Source of the DNA: Candidatus Angelobacter sp.
GTDB taxonomy: Bacteria; Verrucomicrobiota; Verrucomicrobiia; Limisphaerales; AV2
Reading direction: 5' to 3'
DNA length: 44,557 bases
NCBI GenBank assembly: GCA_035607015.1
Contig: DATNDF010000497.1
Span: forward strand, 1 to 44,557
The translations under genes and the position numbers were made by a program. Shown here one piece after another: positions 11,300 through 44,557 of the stretch. Positions within the stretch are counted from its first letter, which is position 1; every line of letters begins with the position of its first letter. The notes under the pieces were generated by a model that worked only from the letters and a program-made list of their open reading frames with translations, was not told where the DNA came from and ran no database searches.

Positions 11300-13522
11300 T
11301 CAATGATTAAACAAAAACTCTTTGCTGCTGAGCAGCGCCCAATACATGTCCTCGACCAGCGGACGTTGTTCGGAATTCTTCGCATCCGCGAGGGTCTTCA
11401 GTATTGCCGCCTTCTCCTCTTTCGTCGGGTAACGCGACAGGACGCCGAGGTAGGCTTCTTCGATCAGTTTCTCCGATGACGATTTTTCGCCCAGTTCTTT
11501 CGCGATCGCGTTGTCCTTCGCCATCAGTTTCTCGTTGATTGAGTCGCCGTTGGCGATGTGCAGCACCTGCGCGACGTTCGGTTCGGCGGTGCGTTCGCAG
11601 GCGCACGTCTTCTCGCGATCAGGACGGCCGAACGTCTTCAGGAAGTAGGAAGCGATCTTCGTGTCCGGAAGCTGGATGGCGCGCAAGCCGACCGGATACT
11701 TCTCGCCGAGGCCGCGGTTCTCGTTGCGCAGGTCGGTGCGAAACTCGGTCGGCACGCCGGTCACCTGCGAATAGGCGTCGAGCAACACCTCGGCCATGAG
11801 GCGGCGCGGGTAATAGCGCGAGTAGAAGCGGGTGTCGGCCTTGTTCTCGGGCAACGATTCGCTGCTGCGTTGATACGTTTCCGATTGAAGGATCGCGCGC
11901 ATCAGCGCCTTGAGGTCGAACTTCCCGTCGGCGAGATAATTCGCGGCGGCAGTCAGTAGTTTTTCATTGCTGGCCGGGTTGGTCACGCGCAGGTCGTCCA
12001 CGGGATCAATCACACCGACGCCGAAAAAGTTCGCCCAGATCCGGTTCGCGATCGAGCGGGCGAAGTAAGGATTGTCCCGCGAAGTGAGCCAGTCGGCGAG
12101 CGCTTCACGGCGGTCGCGCGGATCGTCGAGTGGCAGCGGCTTGCCGTCGAGCGGCGTGGGCGGCTGCGCCTTGCCGGTGAGGGGTTGCACGATGTCGCCG
12201 TGGTCCGCGACGAAGATGATTTCGTCGTCGTCCTTGCCGGTCTTGGCGCGGACGCGGGCGAACAGGTTGGCGAAGCGGTAATATTGTTCGTTGGTCCACT
12301 TCTCCATCGGATGATTGTGGCACTTCGCGCAGGCGACGGACATGCCGAGGAACGCCTGAGTGGTCGTCTCAGCCATGGAGCGCGGGTCCTCGTGAAGCAC
12401 GAAGAAATTGCCGGCGCCGTTTTCGAGCGTGCTGCCCTGGGCGGTGACGATCCTGCGGACAAACACGTCCCACGGCGTGTTGGCGGCGACGTTGTTTCGG
12501 ATGAACCGGTAGTAACTCCACATCGCCGCCGGCTTCAGGCGTTTGCTGGAGACCAGCAGCAGATCGGACCATTTGTAGGTCCAGTAATCGACGAACTCGG
12601 GCCGCTGAAGCAACGAGTCGATGAGCCGGTCGCGTTTGTCTTTCGATTTCCCGTCGAGAAACGCGCGGACTTCCTCCGCAGTCGGCAGCGTTCCAATCGT
12701 GTCGAGGAACGCGCGGCGGATGAACTCCGCGTCGTTGCAACGGGGCGACGGCGGCAGGTTCAATTCGCGCAACTTCTCCAGCGCGAGATCATCAATGAAG
12801 TTGCGCTTCGGCGCTTTGGTGAAGATGGACGGTGAAACTTTGTTCGTGAACGACACGGTGACGGTGGCGACGGCGATGCGGCTGAGATACCACGCGGTGA
12901 TGGCGCCTTCGCCGTTGCCGACGACGGTGACCTTGCCGTCTTCGCCGACGTTGGAGACCGTTTCGTTCGCCGAGGTGTATTTGGCCCAGCGCGTCACGTC
13001 TTCCGAATGGCCATCGCTGAAATAGGCCAGCACGGTCAGTTGTTGCGTCGCGCCGTTTTTCAGGGTCGTGTGGTCCGGCCGGACTTCGATGCGCTGGATG
13101 CGCGGGTCGTCAGGTTTGGGGCCGGGGGCGCCGGCGGCGATCCATTGAGAAAGGATTTTGTATTCGAGCGAGTTCACCTCGAAGCGTTGTCCGCCTTTGT
13201 GCGGCACAGTTCGGGTGGGTTTGATCAACATCAGACTGCGGCCGGGATCGGACGGGACAATGCGGCGTCCGCGCGCGTTGCGGGTAAGCGCGAGGTAATC
13301 GCCTTCGTCATCGAAGCCGCGCAGGGACAGTTTGAAGCCGTTCTGTCCGGCGGCCGCGCCGTGGCAGGCGCCGGAACTGCAGCCGAATTTGGCGAGCACG
13401 GGCTGGACATGGTTGCGGAAGGTGATGTTGGTGAGCGCGACCGAGTCGGCGTCGGCTGCCTTTGCGGAAAGAGCCAGGAGAAGGCCGCCCGCGAAACACG
13501 CGAAGTAACGCGAAAGACTCAT
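11300..13522 (-). CDS. Cytochrome / Ig-like / DUF1549-DUF1553 protein
   Basis: A 740-residue exported protein. Signal peptide: MSLSRYFACFAGGLLLALSAKA. A cytochrome-like segment carries Cys48-x4-Cys53-His54 (GCSSGACHG), spaced wider than a normal CxxCH. A bacterial Ig-like (BIG2) domain follows (RIEVRPDHTTLKNGATQQL...VVGNGEGAITAWY). Then come DUF1549 (NFIDDLALEKLRELNLPPSP, FIRRAFLDTIGTLPTAEE) with a second heme-like CAKCHNHP, and DUF1553 (REALADWLTSRDNPYFARSI, NRIWANFFG, ILQSETYQRSS). In Planctomycetes and Verrucomicrobia this protein pairs with DUF1501, as here. I chose the ATG at 13522 for its signal peptide. A TTG at 13606 overlaps the upstream stop (TTGA) and would add 28 residues. The biochemical function of the family is not settled. 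Confidence 0.9.
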   Translation of the reverse strand: MSLSRYFACFAGGLLLALSAKAADADSVALTNITFRNHVQPVLAKFGCSSGACHGAAAGQNGFKLSLRGFDDEGDYLALTRNARGRRIVPSDPGRSLMLIKPTRTVPHKGGQRFEVNSLEYKILSQWIAAGAPGPKPDDPRIQRIEVRPDHTTLKNGATQQLTVLAYFSDGHSEDVTRWAKYTSANETVSNVGEDGKVTVVGNGEGAITAWYLSRIAVATVTVSFTNKVSPSIFTKAPKRNFIDDLALEKLRELNLPPSPRCNDAEFIRRAFLDTIGTLPTAEEVRAFLDGKSKDKRDRLIDSLLQRPEFVDYWTYKWSDLLLVSSKRLKPAAMWSYYRFIRNNVAANTPWDVFVRRIVTAQGSTLENGAGNFFVLHEDPRSMAETTTQAFLGMSVACAKCHNHPMEKWTNEQYYRFANLFARVRAKTGKDDDEIIFVADHGDIVQPLTGKAQPPTPLDGKPLPLDDPRDRREALADWLTSRDNPYFARSIANRIWANFFGVGVIDPVDDLRVTNPASNEKLLTAAANYLADGKFDLKALMRAILQSETYQRSSESLPENKADTRFYSRYYPRRLMAEVLLDAYSQVTGVPTEFRTDLRNENRGLGEKYPVGLRAIQLPDTKIASYFLKTFGRPDREKTCACERTAEPNVAQVLHIANGDSINEKLMAKDNAIAKELGEKSSSEKLIEEAYLGVLSRYPTKEEKAAILKTLADAKNSEQRPLVEDMYWALLSSKEFLFNH

Positions 13523-16208: not shown

Positions 16209-16343
16209 TTTGAAGTGCAGGTGCATTGCAGAATCAATTCAAACCATGCTGCTCCGGCCAATCGCGTGAGTTGGTACGAGCGTTTATGATTGATTACAAG
16301 AGAGTTAGAAAATCAGGAGAGCAGTGGTACAAAAGGAGCTAAA
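16209..16343 (+). promoter_or_regulatory. Shared leader element, copy A
   Basis: Starts with TTTGAAGTGCA (16209-16219) and continues to ATTGCAGAATCAATTC (16225-16240), a near-palindromic TGCA...TGCA box. It ends with GGTAC (16326-16330) and AAGGAGCTAAA (16333-16343). The same two blocks occur at 40775-40907 with almost the same spacing (117 here, 115 there, measured between block starts). About 60 bases into both copies is a second AATCAAT-type site (here ATTGATT near 16290). The element may be an operator plus promoter and start of the mRNA leader of the synthesis genes. The end block includes the AAGGAG ribosome binding site of the short leader ORF. Confidence 0.6.
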
Positions 16344-16384
16344 TGGGGCGACGTGGCGTCGCATTACACCGACTTCGAGCATAA
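16343..16384 (+). CDS. Putative 13-codon leader peptide
   Basis: A short ORF (MGRRGVALHRLRA) with AAGGAG at 16333-16338, four bases before its ATG, the best ribosome binding site in this gap. It ends in tandem TAATAA (16382-16387), in the same frame as the sugar transferase, whose GTG follows at 16391. A GCGACG/CGTCGC hairpin (16348-16362) lies inside it. Likely role, by inference: ribosomes load here and reinitiate at the GTG, which has no site of its own. It is arginine-rich (4 of 13 residues), as some attenuator peptides are. No homology evidence is available. Confidence 0.45.
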   Translation: MGRRGVALHRLRA

Positions 16385-16390
16385 TAACTT

Positions 16391-17107
16391 GTGAAAGACG
16401 TTCTACAAATTGTTTGGGGAGAGGCGAAGGCGGCGGAACATTCGTGCGGCACGCCGGGCTGGAAGCGATGCCTCGACATAGCGTGCATCGCCCTTGCGCT
16501 TCCGGCGCTGGCACCGCTCATTCTGATCATCTCGCTTTGGATTCGATTGTCGTCCTCCGGCCCCGTTTTGTTCCGGCAGGAACGTGTCGGATACCGAGGA
16601 CGCCGCTTCACTTGCTTGAAGTTTCGGTCCATGAAGGTCAATGCGGACAATCGTGTTCACAAGGAGTACCTCAGGGGACTCATCAATTCAGACGTTCCGA
16701 TGACTAAGATGGATGCCAGGGGCGACTCTCGATTGATTTCCATGGGCGCATTCCTTCGTTCCACCGGGTTGGACGAACTTCCACAACTTATCAACATCCT
16801 GCGTGGCGAGATGAGCATCGTGGGTCCGCGGCCCTGCATCCCTTACGAAAGTGACAACTATCTTCCCTGGCAGAAAGAGAGATTTGAGACCCTGCCAGGA
16901 CTTACCGGTCTCTGGCAAGTCAGTGGAAAGAACAAGACCACTTTCAACGAGATGGTCAATCTCGATATTGCCTACGTGCGGAACAAGTCGCTGTGGCTCG
17001 ATATTCAAATCATCCTGAAGACGGTTCCGGCCCTCATTTCACAGGTCCGTGAAACTCAGGCGAGTCGGAGAACGCAGTCGGCAGACAAAGTCGTGCTCTC
17101 GGCATAA
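16391..17107 (+). CDS. Priming sugar-phosphate transferase (WbaP/WcaJ C-terminal type)
   Basis: A 238-residue bacterial sugar transferase that moves a sugar 1-phosphate from UDP-sugar to undecaprenyl phosphate, the first step of lipid-linked repeat-unit assembly. It has one hydrophobic membrane segment (about residues 30-53), then VLFRQERVGYRGRRFTCLKFRSMKVNAD, LRSTGLDELPQLINILRGEMSIVGPRP and GLTGLWQVSGKN, all hallmarks of the catalytic domain. The N-terminal four-helix domain of full-length WbaP is absent, as in monotopic PglC-like enzymes. The start is GTG at 16391, the first start codon after in-frame TAATAA, preceded by a possible leader peptide. The next gene begins 1 base after the stop. 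Sugar specificity cannot be read. Confidence 0.92.
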   Translation: MKDVLQIVWGEAKAAEHSCGTPGWKRCLDIACIALALPALAPLILIISLWIRLSSSGPVLFRQERVGYRGRRFTCLKFRSMKVNADNRVHKEYLRGLINSDVPMTKMDARGDSRLISMGAFLRSTGLDELPQLINILRGEMSIVGPRPCIPYESDNYLPWQKERFETLPGLTGLWQVSGKNKTTFNEMVNLDIAYVRNKSLWLDIQIILKTVPALISQVRETQASRRTQSADKVVLSA

Positions 17108-40774: not shown

Positions 40775-40907
40775 TTTGAAGTGCAATCGCATTGCATAAT
40801 CAATCCAATCGGAACCGAAAGGTTGGTCTTTGCAAACAGGATCACTGTTTGTCGTTGGAAATCAATTGATGTTGCTATTTCCACTACCGGGTACGGAAGG
40901 AGCTAAA
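40775..40907 (+). promoter_or_regulatory. Shared leader element, copy B
   Basis: Begins with TTTGAAGTGCA (40775-40785), then ATTGCATAATCAATCC (40791-40806). The core TGCAAT-N3-ATTGCA (40782-40796) is a perfect inverted repeat. The distal block is GGTAC (40890-40894) and AAGGAGCTAAA (40897-40907). It corresponds to copy A at 16209-16343, with block spacing of 115 against 117. It also contains a hairpin at 40833-40851 and a second AATCAAT site near 40860. The leader-ORF ATG of copy A is missing here (CTAAAC in place of CTAAAT). It probably drives the secreted protein starting at 41198. Confidence 0.6.
40833..40851. repeat. Hairpin inside leader element B
   Basis: CAAACAG (40833-40839) and CTGTTTG (40845-40851) form a perfect 7-base stem with a 5-base loop. 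It has no T tract. It may be an operator or an RNA hairpin in the leader. No counterpart was found in copy A. Confidence 0.4.
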
Positions 40908-40925
40908 CACGGTTTCTGAGTTCTT

Positions 40926-41189
40926 GTGATTCAACTCGAAGAATCTATGCACCAGATACTGTTTTCAGCCCCTTTGAGCGGAGACACCAGTGCGAAAGCA
41001 TGGGTAAGGAGAATCATGTGTCCTGCACACTTGGAATATAACGGTCGCTCTCGCTCGGTTTGTTTCGATGAATACGTCAATTCGGAACCCTTGCTGAGTT
41101 CGGTCATCCTACGACTGGTGCTCTCACTGGCTACTGAAGCGGGATACGGTTGGTGGTGGACGCAAGCCTATTTGAGCTCCACGCGATAA
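40926..41189 (+). CDS. Doubtful small ORF between leader and secreted protein
   Basis: An 87-codon reading starting with GTG, ending 8 bases before the next gene. It has mixed composition and a weakly hydrophobic stretch (LLSSVILRLVLSLATEAGYGWWW), with no recognisable family. The AAGGAG of the leader is 23 bases before its start, too far for normal initiation. The gap 40689-41197 (509 bases) otherwise holds the terminator and leader element. It may be chance; kept because it fills the space between leader and gene. Confidence 0.25.
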   Translation: MIQLEESMHQILFSAPLSGDTSAKAWVRRIMCPAHLEYNGRSRSVCFDEYVNSEPLLSSVILRLVLSLATEAGYGWWWTQAYLSSTR

Positions 41190-41197
41190 TCCCTCCC

Positions 41198-44100
41198 GTG
41201 CGATCTTCTCGAAAAACATCCTGGGTCGTGGCCGTTTGCTTTGTGCTGCGCGTAATACACTCGGTGCATGGTCAGATGACGCAGCCGCTCGTGGCAATTC
41301 ACGATTCTGAATTGACGCGTAATCTCGAGACGATGGTTGCCGCACCGCCAACTCCGACGGGTCCCTTTACAACTGGTTTTGAATGGTGGCTGACGGATTG
41401 GCATTACTTCGTCATGCCTGAATCCGTCAAGGAAGCCCTTCGATCGGACGGGACCGCCTTCACGGTTGTGAGCGACGCCAATATCAGCGCCGGCCTCTTG
41501 TTAACCAACGGACAACCAAAATATCCCATTGTCATCAGTCTTGCATCGGAGGCAATCAGCGATGACGAGATCGCGCAGTTTACCAACTATGTCGCGGCCG
41601 GAGGCACGTTGTTCATCGGCTCGTCTGCCTTCACTCGTAACACCAACGGGACAACTCGCGGTGATTTTGCATTCTCCAATGAGATGGGAATTCACATGGT
41701 GAACGCGAGTCTGCAGAATTGGGCGAACAACTCCACGTTTACAAAGACCGTTGATCACCGGATTGTCTCGCACATTCCTGGCGGTGGTTTAACCTGGCAG
41801 ATGCCGCGGTTTTCCGAGGAAGTCCCTACCGGTATATCACCGGATCACTCCCTGCCGAACGTGCATGGAATCTGGCAGGTTCAGCCGACTACGAACGCCG
41901 TGGTACTCGCGCAGGGAGACCTTTTCCCCTATCTGTTGGTAAGACAATATGGGAAGGGCAATTTCGTTTATGATGCCGCAATGCAACCCCTGCTCGGGCA
42001 CAGTTCGTGGGCACCTGGAATGTACGCTTATGTAATTTTCCGCAGGGCCATTGAGTGGGCATTCGAGTCATCCAAACTTCCCGTTCCCAAAGTCAGCCCG
42101 TGGCCTTACCCGTACGACGCCGCGCTGAACGTTCGCCATGACTTTGAGAACACGCCCAGTTTGATCAATTCGATTGAGGCGTCGGCTCAATTTGAGGCGT
42201 CGCTTGGGGTGAAAGGGGATTATTTTTTCTGCACAGGCACTCTTCGACAGGAAATGACGAATTCGCCGGCGACGATCGCAAGCCTTCAGCGCGCCGTAAC
42301 GAACTACGGCGCAACGATAGGCCCGCACAACGGAGGCTTGAAGAACCCAAATAACCCGTCGCTGGTTCTTAGTAATTATGATTATTGGCACTGGGGTCCG
42401 GATGAGGCCTACGACTCCACCAACACTCTACCACCAGGTTACACAAACTGGCAGCATTACGCTGCCACGTCCGTGAGCAACGCGTTTTCGGATGTTGACG
42501 GATGGCTGTTCGGCATAACGAATGGTGGCGGAATAAGACATACTGTGGCGCCAAATTTCAATGCCACGCGTGAAGCTTCCTATCAAATCGAGGAGGCATT
42601 GGGCGTCCGAACAACGGGCGAGCAGAAACTTGGTCCGTTTCCCAGCTGGGTGCTTTCGACCTCGCTCAGCACGGCCGGCAAGCGTTATCCATTCATCAGT
42701 CTGCCGGTGAGCGACTGGTACTTGTGCTATCAGACTTCGCCGCCGTTCTGGGTCTCACAGTCCATGGAAACTATATTTGGTCATACGCCGGGAACTGTCC
42801 GGGAACTGGTGGACTTCTATTACGATCTGGGCGGGTTGATCAACGCATACTCACACAACACTTCCCTGGGGGGAGGGACTGCGGACAACAACCCACGCGA
42901 GTATGTTACGTATGCAGTAACAAAACCGCGAATTTGGCTCGCGAATGCCTCGAGCGTTTACTCGTGGTGGGTGGCCAGGACAAATGCGCAAATCACACCG
43001 GTTTTCACAACCAACGGCAATCAATCGATAATCACTCTCGCCTTAGCCGGTGTGACCGATGCCAACTCCGCGGTCGAAGTGCTGTTGCCGCATCCGTCAG
43101 TCTCAGGGCTGCAGGTCTTCACGAATGGCATTTTAGCATCCGGGAGTAGCTATCGGACGAACGGCCAGGTGGTCAAGATCCTTGCGGGGCCTTCAGTGTT
43201 GACCGCTGAAGTTCGCTACACTCTCAATCCGAAAGCTGTGGGTGACGTTTATAGTGTGCCAGCGGCGACGAACCTGATTGTGGCCGCGCCGGGCGTGCTC
43301 ACAAACGATGAGGTGGGTGTCGGAACGAATCTGACCGCGGCGCTCGTGAGCGGTGCATCCCATGGAACGCTGACCCTGAACACGAACGGCGGTTTTACAT
43401 ATTCACCGAATGCCAACTTTACCGGGACGGATAGTTTCACCTATCAGGCGAATGACGGGGTCGCAACCTCGGATGTGGCCACGGCGACCATCACTGTGAC
43501 TCCTGCTGGTGAGGTCTTTTTCGACGACTTTACCCGGGCAGCAAACGCGGAACCGTTGGCGCCATGGATTCCCGCCCTGGGCGACTGGACCATCACCAAC
43601 GGAATACTGCGAGGGGCGAGTTCCGGTGTGGGAGAATACGCCGATGCATACGTGGCAGGAAACTGGAGCGATTTCAGTCTGGAAACCCAGGTCCAGTTGC
43701 CTGCGGGGGCGCACAACGGCGGTTTGACCGGACGATTGAATCCCCTGAACGGAGCAAGATACGGAGCGGTGATTTATCCGGAAGGAGTGGCTGGTCCATC
43801 CGGAATGGTGGCGCTGGTGAAGTTTTCCACGTGGAGGAGCATCCAGCAGATGCAAATCGCGGAGGCTCCAACAGTAGTCGGCACCGGGGTTCACACCTTA
43901 AAGATGAGGTTTCGAGGAAACAGGATCCGCGTGTATTACGACAATACCCAGGTTATCGACGTTACTGATAACAATTTTGGGGGGCAGCCCGCCTTCACGA
44001 GCGGGGCTATCGGCGCCCACCTTTATACAAGAACCGACCAGGTGACGTTCGTCGATACCTTCGATCAACTGAGTGTTAGTCCCATACCGCCGACGCCGTT

Positions 44101-44557
44101 GGCAGCCGACGACAGCTACACCTTCGCCGAGAACAAGACCTCGGTGGTGTCCGCTCCCGGGGTGTTGAGCAATGATGAATTAGGTCTGGGAACGAACCTG
44201 AGGGCCGAGCTCGCCAGCTCGCCGACACACGGCACACTAACCCTCAACACAAACGGCGGCTTCAGTTACACGCCGACTGCCAGCTATGTTGGAACGGACA
44301 GCTTCACGTATCGGGCCCTTGACAGTATTAGCAATTCCGATCCGGCGACCGTGATCATCACGGTGACGACCAATCATCCTCCGGTCGCGAATGACGACAG
44401 CTATAGTTTTGTCGCGAACACGGTGTTGACGGTGACTTCGGCCGCGGGGGTTTTGATCAATGACACCGACTCTGACGGAGACAGTCTGACGGCGACGCAG
44501 GTCACCGGTCCCACACACGGATCGTTGACGCTTAACGCGAACGGCAGTTTCACCTAC
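41198..44557 (+). CDS. Large secreted protein: amidotransferase-like, NodB-like, lectin-like and cadherin-like domains (3' end missing)
   Basis: An open frame of 1120 codons running off the window. A signal peptide-like start (SSRKTSWVVAVCFVLRVIHS, cleavage near VHG-Q) precedes a glutamine amidotransferase-like fold (about residues 30-300; LRSDGTAFTVVSDANI, GGTLFIGSSAF, YGKGNFVYDAA). A NodB-like domain follows with LNVRHDFENTP (His314, Asp315) and IGPHNGG (His377), but the H-x3-H zinc motif is not clear, so it may be inactive. A cadherin-like repeat at about 682-768, a concanavalin A-like lectin domain at about 772-965, and further cadherin-like repeats come next. The start is GTG; an in-frame stop is at 41135. 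GTG 41156 and TTG 41150 are alternatives. It is probably surface-bound polysaccharide-acting or adhesive; this is inference. Confidence 0.8.
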   Translation, partial: MRSSRKTSWVVAVCFVLRVIHSVHGQMTQPLVAIHDSELTRNLETMVAAPPTPTGPFTTGFEWWLTDWHYFVMPESVKEALRSDGTAFTVVSDANISAGLLLTNGQPKYPIVISLASEAISDDEIAQFTNYVAAGGTLFIGSSAFTRNTNGTTRGDFAFSNEMGIHMVNASLQNWANNSTFTKTVDHRIVSHIPGGGLTWQMPRFSEEVPTGISPDHSLPNVHGIWQVQPTTNAVVLAQGDLFPYLLVRQYGKGNFVYDAAMQPLLGHSSWAPGMYAYVIFRRAIEWAFESSKLPVPKVSPWPYPYDAALNVRHDFENTPSLINSIEASAQFEASLGVKGDYFFCTGTLRQEMTNSPATIASLQRAVTNYGATIGPHNGGLKNPNNPSLVLSNYDYWHWGPDEAYDSTNTLPPGYTNWQHYAATSVSNAFSDVDGWLFGITNGGGIRHTVAPNFNATREASYQIEEALGVRTTGEQKLGPFPSWVLSTSLSTAGKRYPFISLPVSDWYLCYQTSPPFWVSQSMETIFGHTPGTVRELVDFYYDLGGLINAYSHNTSLGGGTADNNPREYVTYAVTKPRIWLANASSVYSWWVARTNAQITPVFTTNGNQSIITLALAGVTDANSAVEVLLPHPSVSGLQVFTNGILASGSSYRTNGQVVKILAGPSVLTAEVRYTLNPKAVGDVYSVPAATNLIVAAPGVLTNDEVGVGTNLTAALVSGASHGTLTLNTNGGFTYSPNANFTGTDSFTYQANDGVATSDVATATITVTPAGEVFFDDFTRAANAEPLAPWIPALGDWTITNGILRGASSGVGEYADAYVAGNWSDFSLETQVQLPAGAHNGGLTGRLNPLNGARYGAVIYPEGVAGPSGMVALVKFSTWRSIQQMQIAEAPTVVGTGVHTLKMRFRGNRIRVYYDNTQVIDVTDNNFGGQPAFTSGAIGAHLYTRTDQVTFVDTFDQLSVSPIPPTPLAADDSYTFAENKTSVVSAPGVLSNDELGLGTNLRAELASSPTHGTLTLNTNGGFSYTPTASYVGTDSFTYRALDSISNSDPATVIITVTTNHPPVANDDSYSFVANTVLTVTSAAGVLINDTDSDGDSLTATQVTGPTHGSLTLNANGSFTY
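43241..44557 (+). repeat. Three cadherin-like repeats (one cut by window end)
   Basis: Copies at about 43241-43500, 44102-44370 and 44383 to the window end, separated by a lectin-like domain between the first and second. Each has the pattern APGVLxND, HGTLTLNxNGGFxYxP and GTDSFTY. The same order of bases is recognisable in DNA for the first two (about three quarters identical by eye in the HGTLTLN region). The third is shorter in view. Such repeats often bind calcium and form adhesive stalks. Confidence 0.8.

Follow-up and report, generated by a model that had tools for sequence, protein, structure and literature searches.

Promoters that depend on sigma-54 carry as their hallmark a GG at -25/-24 and a GC at -13/-12, ten bases apart, and in the textbook layout (NtrC, NifA) an enhancer is followed by an IHF site and then by the -24/-12 promoter, site-to-promoter distances of 98-122 bases being typical for sigma-54 enhancers. 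The link between sigma-54 and the bacterial exterior, polysaccharide genes included, is established (PMC3162934, PMC4641369, PMC1569441). For example, in Desulfovibrio vulgaris polysaccharide and biofilm operons are controlled by sigma-54 two-component enhancer-binding proteins (EBPs; DVU0110 and DVUA0057) (PMC4641369), and an RpoN-dependent PEP-CTERM gene has been shown in Aquincola (PMC9850573). The system closest to the one described here is the PEP-CTERM cis-regulatory box of Proteobacteria, with a motif 1, a sigma-54 motif 2 and PrsK/PrsR (PMC1569441). There, according to Haft et al. (2006), proteobacterial PEP-CTERM genes have motif 1, then a spacer of 63 bases on average and then sigma-54 motif 2, which lies about 71 bases upstream of the start codon (PMC1569441).

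We have analysed an element that appears twice within one stretch of 44,557 nucleotides (the window, contig C497) of the draft genome of Candidatus Angelobacter sp., which was searched as a whole (4.58 Mb, 522 contigs, 96% complete). Copy A is located at ~16209 and copy B at ~40775. Each has an upstream block (block I, also block 1; TTTGAAGTGCA-N5-ATTGCAnAATCAAT) at 16209-16238 and 40775-40804, with 0 mismatches, and a downstream one (block III, also block 2; GGTACnnAAGGAGCTAAA) at 16326-16343 and 40890-40907. These two shared blocks and their start-to-start spacing of 117 (copy A) and 115 bases (copy B) had been pointed out in a preliminary description and were found exactly as reported, block 1 being absent from all of 100 dinucleotide shuffles of the window. 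In the whole genome block I matches the same two places only, even with up to three mismatches allowed, and block III is restricted to these two places at up to two mismatches (all further matches have three). The genes named as following the copies were likewise recovered, a Bac_transf priming transferase after copy A and a secreted repeat protein after copy B. Taken together, each copy would very probably be a complete sigma-54-dependent promoter region, with block I as the activator site and block III as the promoter. The features are read as follows.

16209..16241 (+): copy A block I, candidate enhancer/activator-binding site with core TGCAGGTGCATTGCA at 16216-16230; exact match, position kept in four other species, core also kept in another family, where a perfect sigma-54 promoter follows it
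16295..16307 (+): copy A IHF-like place, degenerate, TACAAGAGAGTTA (6/9 fixed positions of WATCAANNNNTTR), placed by the orthologues, which have AATCAAGGGGTTG at this position
16325..16340 (+): copy A block III, predicted sigma-54 -24/-12 promoter TGGTACAAAAGGAGCT, with GG at 16326-16327 and GC at 16338-16339; GG-N10-GC, 8/12 consensus positions, a 12/12 promoter at the same position in genome G253
16350..16352 (+): copy A predicted transcription start, placed 11-13 bases past the -12 GC
16391..17107 (+): priming sugar transferase (Bac_transf; PF02397, E=1e-62), first gene of the putatively controlled operon
40775..40807 (+): copy B block I, candidate enhancer/activator-binding site with core TGCAATCGCATTGCA at 40782-40796; exact match
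40860..40872 (+): copy B IHF-like place AATCAATTGATGT, 2 mismatches, 29 bases before the promoter; from the sequence and from comparing position and consensus across all copies
40889..40904 (+): copy B block III, predicted sigma-54 promoter GGGTACGGAAGGAGCT, with GG at 40890-40891 and GC at 40902-40903
41150..44557 (+): secreted Ig/cadherin-repeat protein downstream of copy B, running off the contig; start uncertain

An 87-codon ORF without Pfam match is also found between the copy B promoter and the secreted-protein gene (window 40926-41189).

All four other species of the genus that were examined carry the block pair. The eight full copies represent four kinds of site, all of them within polysaccharide or surface-protein clusters, and core-to-block III spacings among copies are 99, 108, 110, 111 and 123 bases. 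The place of copy A is identical in 5/5 species, 3' of a polysaccharide export gene and 5' of the priming transferase. Three copies are non-orthologous: copy B of the window, G002b (L010), with a PKD-repeat gene on one side and, on the other, a NarL-type response regulator ahead of GT2 and ABC-transporter genes, and G003b (L037), flanked by an asparagine-synthase-like gene and by the gene of a secreted, pectate-lyase-like protein, behind which come two GT4 genes. The proposal that a single regulator serves both polymer synthesis and a surface protein gains support here, since the copies of the relatives precede genes of the same theme. The preliminary description had staked the element on conservation in relatives and on positions and spacings that are not random genome-wide; what is seen is a pair present across the genus, two places in the own genome and spacings of 99-123 bases. 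Within the genus, block I (up to three mismatches) gave 10 matches, three of them without block III, versus 0 for a reversed control, and among 84,980 species genomes scanned for exact matches to both blocks only four Verrucomicrobia MAGs (AV2, AV4, AV5, AV7), all from this genus, had the pair. Weak block I matches in three further genomes (G064, G075, G109) had no block III within three mismatches and were about as frequent as in the reversed control. Two candidates for block III (L063 and L065, two mismatches) were discarded, as they are located in apparent coding sequence and have no block I; an origin from a mobile element was also dropped, there being no viral match.

We have scored block III against the full sigma-54 consensus TGGCACR-N4-TTGCW (12 positions). 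It reads TGGTAC-N7-AGCT, i.e., (T)GGTACGGAAGGAGCT, with GG and GC exactly ten bases apart, and this GG-N10-GC geometry is preserved in all eight genus copies and in G253. All eight genus copies score 8-9/12 and G253 scores 12/12, while 8/12 with the GG and GC in place occurs about once per 1000 positions. Considered alone, block III would be a mediocre sigma-54 site and moderate evidence, because in the genus the -12 half is GAGCT and not TTGCW, and -23 is T. Within the block, AAGGAGCTAAA is conserved beyond the sigma-54 requirements, and a conserved AAA (16341-16343) directly follows the copy A promoter.

The decisive comparison is G253, the genome of a member of another family in the same order, of which 1.53 of about 6.5 Mb were examined. 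The locus was first reached through a weak model match (E=0.06). In it, TTTTTGGAATGCAAGTGCAATGCAAAATC holds the block I core TGCAAGTGCAATGCA; 105 bases downstream stands TGGCACGAGTGTTGCT, and no other sequence in the 1.53 Mb examined matches the sigma-54 consensus at 12/12. A perfect IHF consensus is found 31 bases before this perfect promoter. About 70 bases separate the promoter from the ATG of a gene whose secreted product weakly matches DUF4114. No other exact core in the examined 1.53 Mb had a sigma-54-like site 60-180 bases downstream, and the other weak order-level model matches (L029-L031, L033, L034) had no sigma-54 partner. This support comes from one locus; over the six weak order-level matches we roughly estimate the probability of coincidence at <1 in 1000. 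Block III is most likely a -24(GG)/-12(GC) sigma-54 promoter.

Block I is an imperfect dyad around TGCA-N7-TGCA and is located 98-122 bases before -26, the expectation for such a dyad being about 80-200 bases upstream. It most likely behaves like an enhancer, i.e., a putative activator-binding site. The perfect palindrome previously noted in copy B (TGCAAT-CGC-ATTGCA) is indeed present, but as judged from the sequences of the other copies it is incidental, because they do not have it; the symmetry that is conserved is TGCA-N7-TGCA. A helical phasing of block I with block III (99, 108-111, 123) had to be abandoned, as G253 breaks it at 105. The distance from block I to block III varies, while that from the IHF place to block III is nearly fixed. 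Specifically, the IHF consensus WATCAANNNNTTR, counted on either strand, appears with 0-1 mismatch 30-31 bases before -26 in 6/8 genus copies and in G253 (7/9), and when the best matches of six divergent copies were summed, 0/2000 shuffles reached the total; copy A has no significant IHF match. The second AATCAAT-type site that had been claimed for both copies is present in copy B, at 40860-40872 (the IHF-like place in most other copies), and has only a degenerate counterpart in copy A. A third conserved stretch between the blocks makes copy B, the orthologous group and the G003b copy mutually similar (p 0.002-0.006). The orthologous group also resembles G002b (p=0.002), the similarity of copy B to G002b being weaker (p=0.054), and no significant match was detected in copy A. 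Upstream of the IHF-like site, AGGATcAC-n-TTTGT is conserved at window 40838-40854 and at the same place in L003, L010 and L037; neither IHF nor sigma-54 accounts for it.

The promoter could instead be block I itself, either of sigma-54 type (NYGCA-N6-TTGCA) or of sigma-70/ECF type (TTGAnn-N17-ATCAAT), with block III as a transcribed leader element. The TTGCA of block I would suit a -12, it has a GCA at the right distance for a -24, and 7-9/12 consensus positions agree. Block I also appears without block III: in three relatives, a block I-like site is found a few bases past the stop codon of a NusG/UpxY-like paralog (L038 784-813, minus strand; L040 near 1520, minus strand; L039 1501-1530, plus strand), with an epimerase or an Ig-repeat gene after it (in G004 ~48 bases before the epimerase gene) and no obvious promoter partner. 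However, block I of every copy has TG or CG in place of the near-invariant GG of the -24, block I of G253 stays non-canonical beside a perfect sigma-54 promoter at block III, and no sigma-70-like match appears in the region of either copy, which makes this reading improbable. The position of those three sites directly after such a gene, the polysaccharide context and the presence of NusG paralogs in four other species would also suit a leader that, as in the JUMPstart/ops or LoaP class, is read by a specialised NusG paralog for processive antitermination; JUMPstart/ops had been evoked, loosely, in the preliminary description. Against such a leader, the own genome has two copies of the element and yet a single NusG was found, of the canonical type, with no match to the paralog of the relatives (as the xerC neighbourhood of the paralog was not found in this draft genome either, the paralog is not proven absent). 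No conserved RNA hairpin appears, folding energies are near those of shuffles for most stretches, neither leader has a terminator-like site, and the perfect sigma-54 promoter of the distant relative occupies the position of block III. We consider such a leader highly improbable. A NusG paralog of a second type adjoins a secreted-protein gene in three relatives (L048, L050, L052).

Least probable of all, by a small step, appears a structured RNA in the 5' leader, be it a riboswitch or a CsrA-type target. GGA motifs occur in block III as well as in the middle region, and an isolated strong fold (40830-40970, z -2.67, stronger than 198/200 shuffles) spans block III of copy B together with sequence on both sides; on the other hand, Rfam gave no match at gathering or at E<=1, and no CsrA gene was found in the own genome. 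The covariation that the preliminary description suggested looking for in the intervening RNA did not appear, the RNAalifold covariation term being unfavourable and compensatory pairs amounting to 1/19. We do not read block III as part of an RNA or antitermination leader, because there is no covariation, no Rfam match and no NusG paralog found in the own genome, and because the promoter geometry is fixed. AAGGAG as the ribosome site of a leader peptide was rejected too, the start codon being missing in copy B, G004a and G003b.

Returning to a sigma-54 promoter region, the machinery is encoded in the own genome: RpoN (TIGR02395, above cut-off) and eight NtrC-type activators, five with GAFTGA, one with GAYTGA and two with GAFTDA. 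None of them is PrsR (TIGR02915) at cut-off (best 417.8 versus 502.6 bits). From what is directly seen (sequences, spacing, conservation, gene contexts, the RpoN and EBP genes, and in a distant relative the canonical promoter) we infer protein binding, DNA bending, start sites and the identity of the activator as follows. An NtrC-type enhancer-binding protein (AAA+, Fis-HTH) would occupy block I as its upstream activating site, and RpoN holoenzyme would recognise block III, ~100 bases downstream, as a -24/-12 promoter. An IHF/HU-type site 30-31 bases before the promoter would probably bend the DNA and thereby bring the polymerase within reach of the activator, which would open it using ATP. 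Transcription would start at block III, near 16351 and 40915, leaving block I upstream of the transcript, and would continue into the priming-transferase operon (copy A) and the surface-protein gene (copy B). A single signal would then drive polymer synthesis and matrix or surface proteins together, and in this group of uncultured soil Verrucomicrobia the genes for the sugar coat and for surface proteins probably share one activator that switches them on jointly.

As to which activator, in G003 an EBP gene starts ~40 bases past an exact block I core (TGCAGACGCAATGCA; L121 991-1030, G003:C287), which makes this EBP a possible candidate for an autoregulated cognate activator; no orthologue was found among the EBP loci examined from the own genome, and G002:C334 and G004:C241 may hold orthologues of it. 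At L121 985-1030 the core is inside a longer inverted repeat, GCATTGC-AGAC-GCAATGC, and the EBP gene holds a run of N. That one EBP with a TGCA-N7-TGCA site runs an order-wide, autoregulated regulon of Verrucomicrobia EPS and surface-protein genes, and that block III forms a promoter class of its own, specialised by a fixed GAGCTAA -12 half, is a speculation that we hold as rather doubtful; the signature expected of such a wider regulon would be TGCANNNGCAWTGCA followed by GG-N10-GC at 90-125 bases. Elsewhere, contig G000:C265 (L129 4359-14918) encodes a secreted protein with Calx-beta/Ig repeats, together with an EBP and a PrsK-like histidine kinase. Near the start of the Calx-beta/Ig-repeat gene, at 11619, TGGCACGGGACTAGCA reads as a near-consensus sigma-54 promoter. 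From its sequence this looks like a second exterior-linked sigma-54 unit.

Compared with the described systems, the element shares with the PEP-CTERM box an activator site, a spacer of tens of bases, a -24/-12 promoter and a location near secreted proteins associated with exopolysaccharide. It differs in that motif 1 of the box ends in TTTACA, the mean spacer is 63 versus about 85-109 bases here, the phylum is another one and the EPS priming operon itself is targeted here. No PEP-CTERM tail was found at the C-termini of the two complete secreted target proteins (the copy B protein is cut by the contig end). The element is not a member of the PEP-CTERM/PrsR box. The upstream dyad, the IHF-like site in between and the -24/-12 promoter are as in NtrC-family enhancer regions, but unlike in the NtrC and NifA regions the dyad is TGCA-N7-TGCA and the activator is only a predicted EBP. 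With the DVU0110/DVUA0057 system of Desulfovibrio vulgaris it would have sigma-54 control of EPS in common, the phylum and the sites being unrelated. JUMPstart/ops-RfaH and the LoaP leader hairpin (PMC12691694) also serve long polysaccharide or biosynthetic operons, but those systems act on the elongating polymerase, whereas the block here is a predicted promoter without a hairpin. In the literature library searched by full text, no paper joined Verrucomicrobia, sigma-54 and enhancer binding protein. Along these lines, a spaced two-block 'leader' becomes recognisable as a putative enhancer and -24/-12 promoter, a promoter design common to a polymer-synthesis operon and secreted repeat proteins. 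It would extend the link between sigma-54 and the bacterial exterior to Verrucomicrobia and provide a specific, testable regulon of matrix production for uncultured soil members of the phylum. This kind of switch is well known, but the present element, with its own activator site, targets and phylum, is undescribed.
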